The notes beneath the pieces are model-generated. The model was not told the DNA's origin. It made no database searches and saw nothing but the letters and a program-made list of their open reading frames with translations. Both the position numbers and the translations under genes were made by a program. This document shows positions 1-9,362 of a stretch of DNA of 9,362 nucleotides, piece by piece (the first letter of the stretch is position 1; each line of letters starts with the position of its first letter). This stretch comes from Pseudomonadota bacterium (GTDB taxonomy: Bacteria; Pseudomonadota; Gammaproteobacteria; Burkholderiales; Burkholderiaceae), in assembly GCA_021783435.1 (NCBI GenBank), contig JAJXUC010000148.1, positions 1-9,362 on the forward strand. The letters are read 5' to 3'.

Positions 1-493
1 TGATGCGCTGCATGCCGACCCAGCCCGGCTCGCCGTCGGCATCGATGGCCATCATCGGCACCAGCAGCTGCGCCCTGCCCTGGCGCAGTCCGGCCGGATC
101 GAGCATCGGTGCCTGCAGGTAGGGAAAGGCCTTGGGCTCGTGGGAGTCCTCCCATCGCTGGATCGCCTCCTCAACGGCAATCGCCTGGCGTTCAGCCTGC
201 TGCCTGCGCCATGCCTCGCGCTGCACTTCAATCCGTGCCATCTCTTGCGGCGTCAGTTCGCGCGCCAGTTCGGGTCTGAACTGGACCGGCTTGCCGTCGG
301 CCTTGAAGTTGGTGATCCAGCCGGTGCCGTCGGGCCGCAACAGATAGCCTGCATCGTTCTTGCCTGACGGCATGTCACCAACGTCGGCGCGATGAATGCG
401 CCCGTCGGCTTCCAGCCGCTCGGGGTCGATGTTGACCCCCTGCAGTCTGGCGAACGCCAGGAACTGGTCGATGGTCTGATCGTTCTGATGCAA
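1..493 (-). CDS. Toprim-type DNA primase, N-terminal part (cut by window edge)
   Basis: This is the first 164 codons of a minus-strand gene that continues beyond the left edge. The residues (LEADGRIHR near 27-35, DAGYLLRPDGTGWITNFK near 47-64, then a charged helix and KAFPYLQAP...LRQGRAQLLVP...GWVGMQRI at about 121-164) follow the plan of the zinc-less, Toprim-containing primases found on plasmids and integrative conjugative elements. In those the PYL...GLR...LLVP..D.DG....LQRI stretch precedes the catalytic Toprim domain, which lies outside this window. Such proteins are expected to prime lagging or transferred strands in the cytosol. The start is a TTG at 493-491, placed 5 nt after a strong AAGGAGG (505-499). 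A GTG directly before it (496-494) is in frame but too close to the Shine-Dalgarno. The methyltransferase gene lies 62 bp upstream on the same strand, so the two are probably co-transcribed. Family assignment comes from residue pattern only. Confidence 0.72.
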   Translation of the reverse strand, partial: MHQNDQTIDQFLAFARLQGVNIDPERLEADGRIHRADVGDMPSGKNDAGYLLRPDGTGWITNFKADGKPVQFRPELARELTPQEMARIEVQREAWRRQQAERQAIAVEEAIQRWEDSHEPKAFPYLQAPMLDPAGLRQGRAQLLVPMMAIDADGEPGWVGMQRI

Positions 494-498
494 CACAG

Positions 499-2475: not shown

Positions 2476-2772
2476 ATGGCTGAAAAATTCACGTGCTACG
2501 ACACGGCGGACTACCTGAAGGCCGACGAAGATATGGTTGCCTACCTGGATGCCTGCATCGAGGATGACCCCGGCGATGGCAGCCTCATCCGCGTTGCGCT
2601 GGGCACGATTGCCCGGGCCCGGGGCATGAGCCAGCTTGCCCGAGATACCGGCATCTCACGCGAAGGGCTTTACCAGGCGTTGTCTGCCGAAGGCAACCCG
2701 GAGTTCTCCACGGTGATGAAGGTGATCCGGGCGCTGAAGCTCAGGCTGCACGCAGAGTCATTGCCTGGTTGA
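2476..2772 (+). CDS. higA: HigA-like antitoxin (addiction module antidote, HTH)
   Basis: A 98-aa protein that looks intact. It has the layout of the addiction-module antidote family paired with Gp49/HigB-like toxins. The N-terminal YDTADYLKADEDMVAYLDAC stretch at 8-27 is typical, followed by IRVALGTIARARG and a helix-turn-helix at about 51-90 (MSQLARDTGISREGLYQAL, then PEFSTVMKVIRALKLRL). It should neutralise the toxin and repress the operon from the palindrome at 2127-2148. The start lies 3 bp after the toxin stop, with the purine-rich tail of the toxin gene (GGGAGGA) as possible Shine-Dalgarno. With the toxin frameshifted, its remaining roles would be autorepression or neutralising related toxins elsewhere. 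Confidence 0.88.
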   Translation: MAEKFTCYDTADYLKADEDMVAYLDACIEDDPGDGSLIRVALGTIARARGMSQLARDTGISREGLYQALSAEGNPEFSTVMKVIRALKLRLHAESLPG

Positions 2773-3142: not shown

Positions 3143-3332
3143 TGGAGCATGTCAGTCTTCTCGACGTTTCAGCGGCTGCGCGCAGTCCGGCGCGAGTTCG
3201 GGCGCCATGAGCACAAATTTGATCCGGTTGAGCGAACCGGGACAAAGGCACCAAACGTCACTGGAACCTCGCATCTGATCTGCGATGCTCGGAGACTCCT
3301 CTTTTGACACGACCCTCCCTGTTGACCGATTG

Positions 3333-4271
3333 ATGAACACCAACCTGACAGACGACAACGAATCCGAGTCCAGCGCAGAAGACCGGGCCGCAGCCGCATC
3401 ACGCAGCACCTGGGTCAGCGTGGCGGTGAACCTTGGTTTGAGCACGCTGCAAATCCTGGTCGGCCTGCTGGCGAAGTCGCAGGCCTTGATTGCAGACGGA
3501 GTCCACTCACTATCCGACCTGCTGGCCGATTTCATCGTTCTGCTGGCCAGCCACTTCGGCAAGAAGGATGCGGACGCCGACCATCCTTATGGCCATCATC
3601 GATTCGAGACGGCCGCCTCGCTTGCGTTGGGTGCCTTGCTGCTCGCCGTCGGTATCGGCATGCTCTGGTCCGCGTTTCTCAAGCTGGAGCACCCTCATAC
3701 CGTGCCGCAGGTGCACAGTGCCGCACTCTGGGTGGCCGCGACCGCTCTGGTCGCCAAGGAGTTGTTGTTCCGGTACATGCTGGGCGTGGCCAAGCGCGTG
3801 AAGTCGAGCTTGCTGGTTGCCAACGCCTGGCATGCCCGCTCCGATGCCGCATCCTCTTTGGTCGTCGGCATCGGGATCATCGGCAACCTCGCTGGCTATC
3901 CGATCCTGGACCCGATCGCAGCAGCGATTGTCGGATTCATGGTGGGCAAGATGGGCTGGGAGTTCGCCTGGGACGCCCTGCATGACCTGATGGATCGCGG
4001 AGCCGACGACGACGAGGTCGAAGCGATCCGCCAGACCTTGCTCCAGACAGCGGGCGTCGCCGGCGTTCATGACCTGCGAACCCGCAAGATGGGCGACATG
4101 CTCCTGGTGGATGTGCACCTGGAAGTCGACGCCGCACTCAGCGTCGAAGCCGGGCATGACATCGCCGTCGAAGCCCGCCGCCAGGTCATGCAGCGACATC
4201 GCGTCCTCAACGTCATGACGCATATTGATCCGTGGCGACGCCCAGATCTGGATCACGCGTTGACACACTGA
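3333..4271 (+). CDS. Cation diffusion facilitator (CDF) metal efflux protein
   Basis: A 312-aa inner-membrane protein of the CDF family, which exports divalent metal from the cytosol in exchange for protons. It shows the expected TM segments in the first 210 residues. The TM2 metal site is DGVHSLSD (H58, D62) and the TM5 site is NAWHARSDAASS (H167, D171). HPYGHHRFE is at 84-92, and the C-terminal cytosolic ferredoxin-like domain (about 222-312) contains TRKMGDMLLVDVHLEVD and VMTHIDP. HxxxD in both TM2 and TM5 is the pattern usual for zinc-type members, so Zn2+ (perhaps Cd2+ or Co2+) is the best guess. I chose ATG 3333 because MNTNLTDD begins a normal-length N-terminus. An in-frame ATG at 3285 would add 16 residues. 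Neither start has a good Shine-Dalgarno. The gene is separated from the next by about 340 bp and appears to be its own unit. Confidence 0.88.
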   Translation: MNTNLTDDNESESSAEDRAAAASRSTWVSVAVNLGLSTLQILVGLLAKSQALIADGVHSLSDLLADFIVLLASHFGKKDADADHPYGHHRFETAASLALGALLLAVGIGMLWSAFLKLEHPHTVPQVHSAALWVAATALVAKELLFRYMLGVAKRVKSSLLVANAWHARSDAASSLVVGIGIIGNLAGYPILDPIAAAIVGFMVGKMGWEFAWDALHDLMDRGADDDEVEAIRQTLLQTAGVAGVHDLRTRKMGDMLLVDVHLEVDAALSVEAGHDIAVEARRQVMQRHRVLNVMTHIDPWRRPDLDHALTH

Positions 4272-4613: not shown

Positions 4614-4820
4614 ATGTTTTTTGCCTTTCAGAACCTCTTGGCCCGCTTGCGGCCCTGCCGCAGCGCGCAGCCCCTTGCCGCATCCCGCATCGTTCCATCC
4701 GGGACAGATCCCGTGCACATCAGCCTGATGGATGTGCGCCTGGCTTCGGTCGGTATCGTCCTGGCGCATCGTGGTCAAACCCAGGGTCACAGCACCTTGA
4801 ACCGGGGAGGTCGGCCATGA
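4614..4820 (+). CDS. 68-aa leader ORF translationally coupled to the NRAMP gene
   Basis: A small unrecognised ORF. It starts MFFAFQNLLARLRPCRS, continues with an SASR/DPVHISLMDV-like middle and ends NRGGRP. The start is strongly supported by GGAGGAAG (4604-4611) 2-5 nt before ATG 4614, better than that of most genes here. Its stop TGA (4818-4820) overlaps the NRAMP start as ATGA, and the NRAMP Shine-Dalgarno lies inside its last codons. Third codon positions are mostly G or C, in keeping with real coding. There are no clear TM segments. It could be a regulatory leader peptide whose translation opens the NRAMP start, or a small protein in its own right. No family is recognised, and an untranslated leader remains possible. 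Confidence 0.5.
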   Translation: MFFAFQNLLARLRPCRSAQPLAASRIVPSGTDPVHISLMDVRLASVGIVLAHRGQTQGHSTLNRGGRP

Positions 4821-6199
4821 ACACCGAAGTCGCGACCCTCGATCCCAAGCTGTGCCCGGACTGCCCCCCGCTGCCAGAGAACCTGGAACAGCGCCTTCGC
4901 GACCGTCTGTATCTGGATGCCTTGCGCAGCGCAAAGCAGAACTGGCGGACCCGACTCGCCCTGGGAGTGGCGCTGATCGGGCCGGGCGTGCTGGTCATGC
5001 TCGGTGACAACGATGCTGGCGGCGTCGTGACCTACGCCCAGACCGGCGCGACCTACGGGCTGGGCATCTTCCTGCCCATGATGATTCTTCTGGGTTTCGT
5101 CGCCTATGTGGTGCAGGAGATGACCGTGCGCCTGGGCGCGGTCACCCGCCGCGGCCACGCCGAGCTGATCTGGAAGCGCTACGGTGCCTTCTGGGGGTGG
5201 TTTTCGCTCATCGATCTGGTGGTGGCCAATGTGCTGACCCTGATGACCGAGTTCATCGGCATCCGCCTGGGCGGTCAGGCCCTGGGGCTATCGGCGTGGC
5301 TGACAGTGCCGGCCTCACTGCTGTTCATCACCTATGTCCTGGTGTTTCTGCGGTACTGGACCTGGGAGCGGATTTCGCTGTTCATCGCGGTGTTCAACCT
5401 GATCTTTGTGCCGCTCGCCCTGTTTTCGCACCCGAACTGGCATGCGGTCGCGCAGACCTTTGTGGGGCACGGCTGGATCGTGCCGGGCGGCTTCCTGTCG
5501 CTCACCTTCCTGATCCTGATCTCGGCCAACATCGGCACCACCATCGCGCCATGGCAGCTGTTCTTCCAACAGTCGTGCGTCGTGGACAAAGGTCTGTTGC
5601 CACAAGACATTCGTGCAGGTCGCCGCGATCTGATGCTCGGCATCATCGGCATGGTGCTGGTGGCCATGGCCATCATCATCCTGGCGGCGCAGACCCTCAA
5701 GGGCGTGCCCAATGTGCAGAATGTCGATGCCGATATGGTGCTGCATGCCATTCGCAGCAAACTGGGCGACGGCATGATGGCCTTGTTTGCCCTGGGTCTG
5801 ATGGAAGCCGGGCTGATTGCCTCCATCGTGATCACGGCCAGCAGCGCCTGGGCAATCGGCGAAGCCTTTGACATCGATCGCTCGATCAACGCGCCCCCGC
5901 GCAAGGCCATCGGTTTTTATCTGCCCGCGATCCTCGGCACGGCCGTGGCGGCCATCGCGGTGATGATTCCGAACCTGCCCCTGGGTTTTCTGAACCTGAG
6001 CGTGCAGGTGATTGCCACGGTGTTCATGCCCGCGGCCATGCTGTTCCTGCTGATGCTGCTCAACGACCGTGAGCTCATGGGCGACCAGGTCAATTCGCCG
6101 CGGCGCAACGCGGTGTCCATTGCCATCATGGTGGGCTTGATTGTGTGCAACGGCCTCTATGGTGTGGCCACTTTGTTTCCCCATGTCTTTGGAGGATGA
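4817..6199 (+). CDS. Divergent NRAMP-family divalent metal transporter (possible Mg2+ type)
   Basis: A 460-aa inner-membrane protein of the NRAMP/SLC11 superfamily with about 11 hydrophobic segments from residue 47 onward. GPGVLVMLGDNDAGGVVT at 55-72 is TM1: D66 aligns with the metal-binding Asp of canonical DPGN, but the Asn position is G69. In TM6, TTIAPWQLFFQQS at 241-253 replaces the canonical V-MPHN-LF, so the soft-metal ligand Met is A244. LLNDRELMG at 414-422 is another mark of the non-MntH branch. Loss of Met is the change known in NRAMP-related magnesium transporters, so Mg2+ is plausible and Mn2+/Fe2+ less likely. The N-terminus carries a CPDC motif (C13, C16). The start at 4817 has GGGGAGG 6 nt upstream. 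A longer in-frame reading from 4541 only adds leader-like residues. A small membrane gene follows after 3 bp. Confidence 0.9.
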   Translation: MNTEVATLDPKLCPDCPPLPENLEQRLRDRLYLDALRSAKQNWRTRLALGVALIGPGVLVMLGDNDAGGVVTYAQTGATYGLGIFLPMMILLGFVAYVVQEMTVRLGAVTRRGHAELIWKRYGAFWGWFSLIDLVVANVLTLMTEFIGIRLGGQALGLSAWLTVPASLLFITYVLVFLRYWTWERISLFIAVFNLIFVPLALFSHPNWHAVAQTFVGHGWIVPGGFLSLTFLILISANIGTTIAPWQLFFQQSCVVDKGLLPQDIRAGRRDLMLGIIGMVLVAMAIIILAAQTLKGVPNVQNVDADMVLHAIRSKLGDGMMALFALGLMEAGLIASIVITASSAWAIGEAFDIDRSINAPPRKAIGFYLPAILGTAVAAIAVMIPNLPLGFLNLSVQVIATVFMPAAMLFLLMLLNDRELMGDQVNSPRRNAVSIAIMVGLIVCNGLYGVATLFPHVFGG

Positions 6200-6202
6200 G
6201 CC

Positions 6203-6400
6203 ATGAAGCAACTGCATGAATTCGATCCTGCCGACATCCGCCGCCTCATCGAGCGCGAGGGCTGGGAGAAACCCTTGGCGCCTGTGCAGCGTGTGCGGCT
6301 CACGACCCGGCAGCAGGCTGTGTTCTGGGGATTGCGGATCTATGTGATGGTGATGACCGCAGTGGTCGTCTGGGCCTTCCTGCACGGCGCCGCCGGCTGA
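6203..6400 (+). CDS. 65-aa single-TM protein co-transcribed with the NRAMP transporter
   Basis: A small protein with a soluble, charged N-terminal half (KQLHEFDPADIRRLIEREGW, residues 2-21) and one C-terminal TM helix (about 40-62, from FWGLRIYVMVM onward). The N-terminus therefore probably lies in the cytosol. GGAGG at 6191-6195, within the NRAMP stop region, stands 7 nt before the ATG, and only 3 bp separate the two genes, so they are in one operon. No family is recognised. Position, size and topology suggest an accessory or stabilising subunit of the transporter, comparable in concept to other small membrane proteins that modulate transporters. That role is inferred. Confidence 0.75.
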   Translation: MKQLHEFDPADIRRLIEREGWEKPLAPVQRVRLTTRQQAVFWGLRIYVMVMTAVVVWAFLHGAAG

Positions 6401-6552
6401 CCCTCCCCGGCGCGCATCGCGCGCCCATCTCATCTCCTCTGAACCCGTGTGACGCATTGCGTCGCACGCCGGGGGGCGTGCGCGCCGCGCGCACGCCCCT
6501 GCATCCCGAACCGTCACGATCCCGATCCAGAATCGGGAGGGAAGGACGCATC
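6401..6552 (+). promoter_or_regulatory. Run of four hairpins between the transporter and porin genes
   Basis: Four stem-loops lie in 152 bp. (1) GGCGCGC/GCGCGCC with loop ATC (6409-6425). (2) GTGTGACGC/GCGTCGCAC with loop ATT (6447-6467, one G-U pair). (3) GGGGCGTGCGCG/CGCGCACGCCCC with loop CCG (6473-6499), an exceptionally stable 12-bp perfect stem. (4) TCCCGAT/ATCGGGA with loop CCAGA (6520-6538), which overlaps the GGGAGG upstream of the porin start. None is followed by a T-run. They could protect the upstream mRNA, partly terminate transcription, or limit porin translation. Confidence 0.55.
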
Positions 6553-7644
6553 ATGAGCAAATTCCATCTGTTCCTTCTGTATGTCGTTCTGCTGGCCATC
6601 GTGCTCGGCAGCGCGGCGCTGCCCGCCGCCCGTGCGGACGACGGCGCGCTGAGCACAGCGGGCCGACTCGATCTGAACAGCCAGGCCAATCTCTCGGGTG
6701 GGCTGCAAAGCCGCCCGGCATCCTCTGTGCTGTTCCAGTGGGGAGGCAGCCTGGACACGGGAGCCGCCCGGTGGTGGCCCGGTGGCTTGATCGAGTTCAG
6801 CGTCGAGGGGGTGCGCTCTGGTGGCAATTTGCCCGACCGCACCGGGGCGATCCAATACCCGAACAACGAGTGGGCACCCAATTTCTTGCGCCTGTATCAA
6901 TTGACCTATCGGCAGCAACTGGGCGCGGCGGCTGTGCGCGTGGGCATCATGGACCTCAACCAGTATTTCGAGGCGAGTGACGTCTCGGATCTGCTGCAAA
7001 ACAGCTCGTTTGGTCTGGCGCCGAACTTCACCGCAAATTTCAACGACCCTTCATTTCCAAACCCGGGTCTCGGGGCGATGGCGGAATACCGCTTCACCCC
7101 CGCCTGGACGGCACGCGCCGGCATCTGGCAGGGCAACCCGCCGGGGCTGGCTCAGGCGCTGCACCAAGGGGCGCTGTGGATCGGCGAGGTGCAATGGACC
7201 GGGGCGGCGATCCAGGGCGATCAGTCGGCGCAGGACCTCAAGCTCGGCGCCTGGCACTACCGCCAAAGCGATCCGACGATCGGCCCGACCACCTCTGGCG
7301 GTTACCTGGTGGGCGAGACGCGCTGGGCACGCGGTGCCCAGCAATGGGGCGCTTTTGTTCTGGCCGGCACGTCCCCGGCGCAAGTCAATCTGGTGACGCA
7401 GTTTCTGGCGGCAGGGGTTCTGGTGACGGGGCCGTTCGCCAGCCGACCGCAGGACCAGTTCAGCATGGGCGTGAGCCGGGTGAATCTGCGCGCGCCGGCA
7501 GCGGAGACGGTGCTGGAGCTCGTGTACTCTTGGCAAGTGTCCCCGACCGTGGCGTTGCAGCCCGATGTGCAGCGCTTCTGGCATCCGGGAGGCGTCAATC
7601 CCAGCGCGCTGGTGGCTGGGCTGCGCCTGCATCTGGCCTTTTGA
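6553..7644 (+). CDS. OprB-like outer-membrane porin
   Basis: A 363-aa protein with a signal peptide (h-region LFLLYVVLLAIVLGSAA, predicted cut after A28 in AARA-DD). The mature part is rich in alternating beta-strand patterns and ends in Phe (LRLHLAF), the sorting signal for BAM-inserted barrels. The order LYQLTYRQQL (114-123), VRVGIMDLNQYFE (128-140), NSSFG (150-154), LELVYSWQVSP (321-331) and LQPDVQRFWHPGG (335-347) fits the OprB carbohydrate-selective porin family. At 363 aa it is shorter than many OprB proteins. The start ATG 6553 has AAGGA 6 nt upstream and leads into the signal peptide. Upstream in-frame codons from 6457 cross the 12-bp hairpin and are rejected. The solute is unknown: the family usually passes sugars, but the context suggests ions. 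mgtC follows within 3-15 bp. Confidence 0.85.
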   Translation: MSKFHLFLLYVVLLAIVLGSAALPAARADDGALSTAGRLDLNSQANLSGGLQSRPASSVLFQWGGSLDTGAARWWPGGLIEFSVEGVRSGGNLPDRTGAIQYPNNEWAPNFLRLYQLTYRQQLGAAAVRVGIMDLNQYFEASDVSDLLQNSSFGLAPNFTANFNDPSFPNPGLGAMAEYRFTPAWTARAGIWQGNPPGLAQALHQGALWIGEVQWTGAAIQGDQSAQDLKLGAWHYRQSDPTIGPTTSGGYLVGETRWARGAQQWGAFVLAGTSPAQVNLVTQFLAAGVLVTGPFASRPQDQFSMGVSRVNLRAPAAETVLELVYSWQVSPTVALQPDVQRFWHPGGVNPSALVAGLRLHLAF

Positions 7645-7659
7645 ATCGTGAGACACAGC

Positions 7660-8367
7660 ATGACCGTCCTGTGGAATGATCCCCGCGTCCAGATCCTTGC
7701 CAGCCTGCTGATGGCCTTTGTGCTCGGTGGCATTGTGGGCTATGAACGCCAGTACCGGCAACGCACGGCAGGGCTGCGCACCAATGTGCTGGTGGCCGTC
7801 GGTGCGGCATTGTTCGTCAACATGGCCGATCGGCTTGACGGACATGGCGGATCGGTACGGGTGATCTCTTACGTCGTTTCAGGTATCGGTTTTCTGGGGG
7901 CGGGTGTGATCATGCGCGAGGAAGGCAACGTGCGCGGGATCAACACCGCCGCAACGCTGTGGGGATCGGCCGCGATCGGGACGGCGTGTGGGGCGATGTT
8001 GTTTTTCGAGGCGAGTCTGGGGGCCTTGTTCGTGCTGGCGGCCAACACGCTGTTGCGTCCTCTGGTGAATGCCATGAACCGCCAGCCGCTGGATACCGAG
8101 GCGGTCGAAGCCACCTACACGGTCTATGTGATCGCGGCGCAGACTGAGCGCCAGAACGCCCTGGAACGCGTCGAGCAGGCCCTTGAGTCAGCAGGCTATC
8201 CGATCCGTGAATTGCAGCAGCACGCCTTCGGGCAGGCCGAGGTGGAAATCGAAGCCACGCTGATGGCCACTTCGGTGGATGGAGAGGCGCTCGACGCCAT
8301 CGTCGACAGCCTGTCCAAACTGCCGCAAGTCCACCAGGCGTTCTGGAGCCCGAGTACGTCAGAGTGA
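7660..8367 (+). CDS. mgtC: MgtC/SapB family inner-membrane protein
   Basis: A 235-aa protein. The N-terminal membrane domain carries the family signature: GGIVGYERQYRQRTAGLRTN at 23-42, LVAVGAALF at 44-52, SGIGFLGAGVIMREEGNVRG at 74-93 and INTAATLWGSAAIG at 94-107. The C-terminal domain (about 145-235) resembles the ACT-like cytosolic domain of the longer MgtC proteins. MgtC members are needed for growth at low Mg2+ and, in Salmonella, act on F-type ATP synthase rather than transporting Mg2+. ATG 7660 has a weak GAGA 6 nt upstream. An in-frame GTG at 7648 would add four residues and start 3 bp after the porin stop. The gene is last in the cluster and convergent with the next gene. Confidence 0.88.
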   Translation: MTVLWNDPRVQILASLLMAFVLGGIVGYERQYRQRTAGLRTNVLVAVGAALFVNMADRLDGHGGSVRVISYVVSGIGFLGAGVIMREEGNVRGINTAATLWGSAAIGTACGAMLFFEASLGALFVLAANTLLRPLVNAMNRQPLDTEAVEATYTVYVIAAQTERQNALERVEQALESAGYPIRELQQHAFGQAEVEIEATLMATSVDGEALDAIVDSLSKLPQVHQAFWSPSTSE

Positions 8368-8763: not shown

Positions 8764-9249
8764 TCACCACGCTTGGAGGCCGGTACCCCAGTGCCACAGT
8801 TGGCTCCATTGGGCGTCTAGCCAAGAAATGATATGGAAACTGGACGCAATCTCCTGCGCGTAGCGCTGCTGTAATGCCGGCGTCGTGGAGTGGTAGGCGC
8901 CAACCGCCGCCCAGGTGTTGCCATAGCGCTGGACGGCACGGTGATACAATCGCGCGCCCGCTAGGATATTGGCACAGATCGGCATCACCGTCTCCGGCGT
9001 CAATTTCAGTGAAGGCAGATTTCTGCTGTTGATCTGCATGAGACCGTAATCTGTCGTGCCGTTGCTATTTCGGTGCACGCGCCAAGGCCAGAAATGTGAT
9101 TCATGCCACGCGATGGCCATGAGCACGTCGGCATTCACATGCTCACGCCGCGCAGCCTCAGCGAAACAAAACCCCTGTGGTTGTGCGATTTGAAGTGGGG
9201 TCTGCGCAGGGTCAGCCTGAAGCAGCACCGAAAGCGCTATGCCCCACAT
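8764..9249 (-). CDS. Lytic transglycosylase, VirB1/IagB type
   Basis: A 161-aa protein with the SLT lysozyme-like domain: catalytic E50 in AIAWHESHF, then NSNGTTDYGLMQINS (61-75) and NTWAAVGAYHS (111-121), closing the domain. C28 (GFCFAEAA) and C92 (PICANI) match the cysteine pair of exported IagB/VirB1 enzymes. It would cut peptidoglycan glycan strands in the periplasm, locally opening the wall for a conjugation, pilus or secretion apparatus. The start ATG 9249 is chosen because AAGGA stands 6 nt upstream and a hydrophobic stretch (WGIALSVLL) follows. In-frame TTG 9276 would add a KxxxxR n-region that suits a signal peptide, and ATG 9348 is a third option. Its presence, with the primase at the other end, is the main hint of a conjugative element. 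Confidence 0.85.
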   Translation of the reverse strand: MWGIALSVLLQADPAQTPLQIAQPQGFCFAEAARREHVNADVLMAIAWHESHFWPWRVHRNSNGTTDYGLMQINSRNLPSLKLTPETVMPICANILAGARLYHRAVQRYGNTWAAVGAYHSTTPALQQRYAQEIASSFHIISWLDAQWSQLWHWGTGLQAW

Positions 9250-9362
9250 CGGTCTTCCTTGCAGTGCCTTGACCAACGTTCCATGGCTCGATTTTCTCAG
9301 GGAATTGAGATGAACGACCCAAACCACCGTTTTTGAGAACGGAGGCATTCGAGAAAGCTAAG

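Follow-up and report, generated by a model that had tools for sequence, protein, structure and literature searches.

Organization of the locus

The window, by which we mean the whole stretch of 9,362 nucleotides that was analyzed, contains an open reading frame (ORF) for an NRAMP-related carrier and, directly behind it, a small ORF predicted to encode a membrane protein with a single helix (Table 1). The carrier ORF scores 206.5 bits with the Pfam Nramp model, whose cut-off is 29.8. The small ORF, which is absent from the initial annotation of this DNA, starts with an ATG three bases past the stop codon of the carrier, and a GGAGG lies eight bases ahead of that ATG. Its product has no match at E ≤ 0.001 in Pfam, NCBIfam, or PHROG, and its homologs, where they are named at all, carry "hypothetical" names.

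Table 1. Coordinates of the carrier, its metal-site residues, and the neighboring genes in the window.
Feature	Position	Strand	Basis
Cation diffusion facilitator (CDF), context	3285-4271	+	Pfam PF01545, PF16916
NRAMP-related (NRMT-like) carrier, 460 aa	4817-6199	+	Pfam PF01566; EleNRMT is the nearest solved structure; tree
Carrier TM1 site D66-A67-G68-G69, at the DPGN position	5012-5023	+	EleNRMT D55/A56/G57/G58
Carrier TM3 acidic residue E145	5249-5251	+	E in 57/57 window-clade rows; EleNRMT E133
Carrier TM6 site T241-T242-I243-A244-P245-W246 to Q251, at the MPH...H position	5537-5569	+	EleNRMT T224/A227/W229/N234
Small single-helix membrane protein, 65 aa, candidate subunit	6203-6400	+	Homologs behind clade carriers; dN/dS; fused-tail HMM
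OprB-type porin ORF, context (TTG start listed, in-frame ATG at 6553)	6457-7644	+	Pfam PF04966, 120 bits
MgtC/SapB family protein, context	7648-8367	+	Pfam PF02308, PF21770

The OprB porin gene and then mgtC follow on the carrier's strand, together spanning 6457-8367, and the porin could serve as an outer-membrane route for Mg2+; OprB recurs in one of the 80 relative loci searched (L023). The initial annotation had placed mgtC next to the carrier and read it as support for a role in Mg2+ transport. An mgtC gene is present in the window, but it is separated from the carrier by the 65-residue ORF and the porin gene, and the support it lends is weak, since the window MgtC used as a query matched two of the 80 relative loci (L024 and L025). 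With these two loci found by search and one plasmid found by annotation, mgtC was rejected as a conserved partner of the carrier.

Upstream, a possible leader ORF for 68 residues (4614-4820, plus strand) ends in a TGA that overlaps the ATG of the carrier (ATGA). A tblastn search with this ORF yielded no convincing homologs (best E of 0.53); a similar-looking ORF ends at the same overlap with the carrier ATG in L001, and other ORFs end there in L005, L012, and L004. The leader ORF is a candidate for translational coupling or leader-peptide control.

The metal site of the carrier

The TM1 segment of the carrier reads DNDAGG, with D66 encoded at 5012-5014 and G69 at 5021-5023, and the TM6 segment reads GTTIAPWQ, with A244 encoded at 5546-5548 and Q251 at the position of the second His. 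The canonical MntH/SLC11 motifs, DPGN in TM1 and MPH in TM6, are absent, and DAGG and APW stand in their places. An alignment of the window clade shows that D66, A67, G68, G69, E145, T241, A244, P245, W246, and Q251 are invariant in all 57 rows, so that these residues are a signature of the clade and no accident. Translation and alignment thus bear out the residues that the initial annotation had read from the NRAMP ORF, namely a retained D66, G69 in place of Asn, and A244 in place of Met.

That annotation had gone on to propose that loss of the TM1 Asn makes the site more unusual than those of the known Mg2+ transporters, and this does not hold. According to the available part of the published account (PMC8806188), DxxG-TxxA/T is the stated motif of the NRMTs (Nramp-related Mg2+ transporters), and EleNRMT has Gly for the Asn, Ala for the Met, and replacements of both TM6 His residues. 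The carrier has both halves of this motif, DxxG in TM1 (D66 to G69) and TxxA/T in TM6 (T241 to A244), as do all 57 rows. EleNRMT of Eggerthella lenta (PDB 7QIA, 7QIC, 7QJI, and 7QJJ) has the same D-A-G-G and T..A-P-W and has likewise lost both His positions, the second of which is N234 in EleNRMT and Q251 here. A metal site stranger than those of the NRMTs is ruled out by the EleNRMT residues and by the motif as given in that part of the account; judged by its residues, the site is ordinary among NRMTs.

Family placement and distribution

We placed the carrier in a maximum-likelihood tree of 98 rows rooted on MntH. The window carrier falls in a clade of 55 rows (support 100/97), while EleNRMT and 16 relatives form a clade of their own (17 rows, 99/90). 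The window lies in a 65-row branch that is sister to the EleNRMT clade, although the node joining the two is weaker (95/73). The initial annotation had stated that a place within canonical MntH on a tree would refute its proposal, and the tree puts the protein outside MntH. The scores agree: the carrier lies below the NCBIfam MntH/Nramp cut-offs (NF001923, 96.8 versus 430 bits; TIGR01197, 40.6 versus 272.5 bits), its best solved match by sequence is EleNRMT at 168 bits, with MntH at 40 bits or less, and a Foldseek search with a predicted model of carrier plus small protein also returned EleNRMT as the nearest solved structure. The carrier is therefore NRMT-like by motif and nearest structure, yet it stands outside the EleNRMT clade proper. 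In the available part of a 2026 preprint (PMC12873925), the Nramp-related groups are described as uncharacterized except for the NRMT-like group and the group with B. subtilis MntG.

Carriers with the small helical module, whether split (encoded as a separate gene) or fused to the carrier, make up the 55-row clade, with L031b as the sole exception, and the EleNRMT clade has none. The fused forms constitute a sister branch of 22 rows (support 100/100) of longer, uncharacterized carriers of approximately 540-570 residues (L058-L080, P0176-P0295).

Database neighbors of the carrier at 96% and approximately 90% identity include proteins named Thiomonas. Close relatives, going by record titles and names, come from Rhodanobacter, Acidocella, Acidiphilium, Acidiferrobacter, Alicyclobacillus, Sulfobacillus, Sulfoacidibacillus, Acidithiobacillus caldus, Thermoplasmata, and Micrarchaeota, which we take to be acidophiles or organisms of acidic sites. 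Within one 27-row clade of the tree, Bacillota stand together with archaea, a metagenome-assembled genome (MAG) from Actinomycetes, and a proteobacterial plasmid. This mixture suggests horizontal transfer, although errors of MAG binning are another possible source of it. The conjugative Acidiphilium plasmid pACRY04 carries the carrier, the small gene, MgtC, and a repressor annotated as metal/formaldehyde-sensitive, and an At. caldus megaplasmid has a carrier copy with cadR and two CDF genes. The window itself may be part of a mobile or conjugative element, as suggested by a weak similarity to DNA primase at 2-496 (minus strand) and, at 8764-9348 (minus strand), by a lytic transglycosylase similar to IagB, TrbN, and VirB1. 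An HI1420-type addiction-module antidote protein is encoded at 2476-2772 (plus strand).

A further NRAMP group, sister to these carriers, retains Met (paralogs L089-L092, L099, L101, L102, and L105). It comprises 10 rows of the tree and combines DTDxGS in TM1 with GAVIMPW in TM6 (Met in 11 of 11 aligned rows), a mixed metal site. A paralog of this kind is present in at least eight of 13 carrier genomes and is a natural candidate for the supply of Mn or Fe.

Evidence for magnesium

Among Gram-positive loci with the split arrangement, 14 of the 15 scanned have an M-box riboswitch 165-350 nt upstream of the carrier (125-160 bits), and at the remaining locus, L045, the upstream sequence is only about 200 nt long. 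M-boxes turn genes off at high Mg2+, as stated in the available part of PMC4072509. Of the four fused loci scanned, L073 alone has an M-box, and among 18 EleNRMT-clade Bacillota loci one had an M-box within its short flanks. None was found in the window, in any of the eight non-Gram-positive split loci scanned, or in L078. Upstream of the window carrier, a search of Rfam gave no known RNA element (best chance match of 17.9 bits), and the region is unconserved in an alignment with ten close relatives.

We searched 36 genomes that have a carrier of this clade for the Mg2+ transporters CorA, MgtE, and MgtA. CorA was matched in 10 of them and MgtE in three (two over the cut-off), and MgtA exceeded the cut-off in four; in 25 of the 36, all three were below the cut-off. 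The model for Mg2+ P-type ATPases matched weakly in all 36 genomes, owing to other P-type ATPases, and exceeded its cut-off in four. CorA and MgtE were both absent from 12 of 17 proteobacterial genomes with the carrier, compared with 21 of 199 other, evenly drawn Pseudomonadota (Fisher p = 8e-8, a value that is indicative only because the carrier genomes are interrelated, their completeness is not given, and the 199 baseline genomes were not screened for the carrier). CorA was not rarer among Bacillota with the carrier (4 of 9, versus 99 of 199 genomes of the phylum, a baseline taken for CorA only). The role as a Mg2+ importer that the initial annotation had suggested gains support from the M-boxes of the relatives and from how seldom CorA or MgtE occurs in the proteobacterial carrier genomes; mgtC lends it little. 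In many acidophiles, the pair of carrier and small protein may be the chief Mg2+ importer in place of CorA and MgtE.

These same observations bear on whether the carrier is instead chiefly an importer of Mn2+, or of another transition metal, with Mg2+ uptake being incidental. Such a preference would suit the CDF gene upstream of the carrier and the behavior of two relatives: in the available parts of the respective reports, EleNRMT was demonstrated to transport Mn2+ as well as Mg2+ (PMC8806188), and NrmT of Acidobacterium capsulatum complemented a Mn2+ defect in full but relieved a Mg2+ defect only when Mg2+ was supplied at low-millimolar levels (PMC4072509). It fits poorly with Mg2+-sensing M-boxes upstream of nearly all the Gram-positive members, with the scarcity of CorA and MgtE in the proteobacterial genomes, and with Met-bearing paralogs that could supply Mn in many of the carrier genomes. 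We consider a Mn2+ importer unlikely, though still a serious contender.

A small single-helix protein is encoded behind the carrier

Of 61 window-clade members examined, the window included, 59 have a homolog of the small ORF behind the carrier, and they range from Proteobacteria to Micrarchaeota. The two unpaired carriers are cut by contig ends, with 79 and 0 nt of downstream sequence. Since the HMM used for this count was built from 54 of the same small ORFs, the figure of 59 of 61 is descriptive, and independent support comes from an HMM of fused tails described below. The small ORF evolves under selection, with dN/dS values of 0.15-0.43 in 14 pairs with the window, and a bias toward Lys and Arg precedes the helix in 54 of 54 small proteins. 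The flanking ORFs are otherwise variable, with no family found in more than two among those scanned (55 of 104 upstream and 52 of 100 downstream).

In the fused relatives, the carrier ends in W-x-x-P...LR-x-Y-L followed by a helix, and the metal-site motif is the same, with Gly at the position of G69 in 18 of 22 and Ala in four. We built an HMM from 18 of these C-terminal tails and ran it on 13,102 six-frame ORFs from 114 loci. It matched 43 of 59 small ORFs of the window type at E ≤ 1, and 39 of the 59, together with those of L057, L114, and L078, ranked above the first unrelated ORF (E = 0.76). When the small proteins and fused tails were aligned with MAFFT, the W, P, and LR-Y positions were in register. 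The converse HMM, built from the small ORFs, matched a single fused protein (E = 0.17), and hhalign of the small protein against the fused tail gave a probability of 10% despite an E-value of 8e-4. On this comparison of sequences, the small protein appears to be homologous to the last helix segment of the fused sister-clade carriers, in which it follows one further helix. The module was found in none of 19 EleNRMT-clade carriers (478-1461 nt of downstream sequence each), and none was seen in seven MntH-type carriers or 11 carriers of the Met-bearing group. The EleNRMT clade differs from the window clade not only in being separate on the tree but also in showing no helper helix in these loci. 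On the tree, the split state would be older and fusion would have occurred once (three changes in all), a reconstruction that hangs on the weak modules in L057, L114, and L078.

A predicted model of the fused protein L077 (pLDDT 89) has an extra helix at residues 455-480 and then the last helix at 513-542. Known NRAMP topology suggests that the 11-helix core ends on the outer side of the membrane. If it does, the extra helix would bring the chain back to the cytoplasm, so the last helix would run from inside to outside, as would that of the free small protein. For the human, plant, and Eremococcus NRAMPs in structure libraries, the alignment to the L077 model extends as far as residues 527-544; for EleNRMT and the Deinococcus, Bacteroides, and Staphylococcus proteins it goes only to 447-452. 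NRAMPs vary in helix count, and some have 12 helices. The end points of these aligned ranges hint that the last fused helix occupies the place of the last helix in 12-helix NRAMPs, a suggestion on which we do not rely, since the ranges show no more than where each alignment stops. In a model of the window carrier with the stop codon read through, the small helix falls at 497-525 with a pLDDT of 58-74, which is too low for placing the helix or reading contacts.

Might the small ORF simply be a neighbor with a job of its own, such as a small regulator of another protein, and have no part in the carrier? The poorly scored model of its helix and the weak reverse HMM and hhalign results leave some room for this. 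A separate job would, however, have to accommodate a pairing that persists across bacteria and archaea while other neighbors vary, as well as sister-clade carriers that end in a homologous tail, and we judge it improbable. Carrier and small gene are well supported as a gene pair, and their products are a candidate complex.

Partner genes have been described for related carriers. According to the available part of PMC4072509, NrmT of Clostridium acetobutylicum (Ca_c0685 and Ca_c3329) and of A. capsulatum has as its partner a soluble homolog of the MgtE N-terminal domain, and a gene for this domain is adjacent at most NrmT loci. The window clade resembles NrmT, as far as that part describes it, in being NRAMP-related, in M-box control of some members, and in having a partner gene in the locus, but its partner is a one-helix membrane protein, whereas that of NrmT is soluble. 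There is no gene for an MgtE N-domain beside the window carrier, whose neighbors are the CDF, small ORF, OprB, and MgtC genes. Unannotated ORFs that may encode small single-helix proteins occur at L114 (a Citrobacter freundii plasmid; 5187-5420) and L057 (8566-8688), near carriers with an MgtE-like/CBS gene, and both types of partner may coexist in these outer members of the clade. MetP-MetS also combines a LeuT-fold carrier with a small membrane subunit; the likeness would lie in the idea of a carrier with a one-helix partner, the family and the substrate being different. Our literature search, which covered the available parts of PMC8806188, PMC4072509, PMC10606218, PMC9606685, and PMC12873925 among other sources, found no mention of a small partner for NRAMP carriers. 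What appears to be new here is the gene pair with its helper helix and the distribution of this pair among acidophiles, the metal site being already known.

Discussion

We propose that the window encodes an NRMT-like Mg2+ importer of acidophiles with a separately encoded transmembrane subunit, a reading to which we assign a probability of roughly 0.6; Mg2+ as the physiological substrate, transport that does not depend on protons, the physical association of the two proteins, and the task of the small one are what we infer. In this importer, Mg2+ would enter between TM1 and TM6 and be held, mostly hydrated, by D66 and by the hydroxyl and backbone of T241, as proposed for EleNRMT. The site widened by D66, G69, T241, and A244 would accept largely hydrated Mg2+, and Mn2+ too, without proton coupling, as shown for EleNRMT. 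Loss of the TM6 His pair makes proton coupling unlikely, although the loss is only suggestive, and for an acidophile, whose proton gradient is steep, an uncoupled carrier would keep acid from leaking in. The small protein, with a predicted cytoplasmic N-terminus, would take the place of the C-terminal helix seen in the fused forms. It most likely packs against the carrier as a subunit that stabilizes or regulates it, and the conserved W-x-x-P segment, facing the cytoplasm, could contribute to either effect.

The membrane potential of acidophiles is reversed, that is, inside-positive. That the carrier would under this potential serve metal resistance, as an uncoupled exit path, is highly improbable: while the plasmid copies beside the pACRY04 repressor or beside cadR and two CDF genes, and the CDF gene upstream in the window, would suit such a role, an off-switch at high Mg2+, as the available part of PMC4072509 describes for M-boxes, has the wrong sense for an exporter, and most of the copies retrieved are located on long genome contigs, where no resistance genes recur.

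A bolder form of the importer proposal, to which we would give slightly less than even odds, is that these are the first two-piece members of the NRAMP superfamily. Their last helix would have a gene of its own, retained throughout bacteria and archaea that favor acid and moved by plasmids, and in hosts without CorA and MgtE the pair would be the chief importer of Mg2+; in the sister clade, the helix would be fused to the carrier, with the extra helix restoring its side of the membrane.

The interest of the locus moves from an oddity of the metal site to an architecture that can be tested, in which a helper helix accompanies an NRMT-like carrier of Mg2+. Substrate assays on carriers of this clade may give weak or deceptive results when the carrier is expressed by itself. 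If the proposal is true, it would provide a route of Mg2+ uptake for the acidophiles of bioleaching and mine drainage, a role for small "hypothetical proteins", and natural split and fused forms with which to study a peripheral helix in a LeuT-fold carrier.
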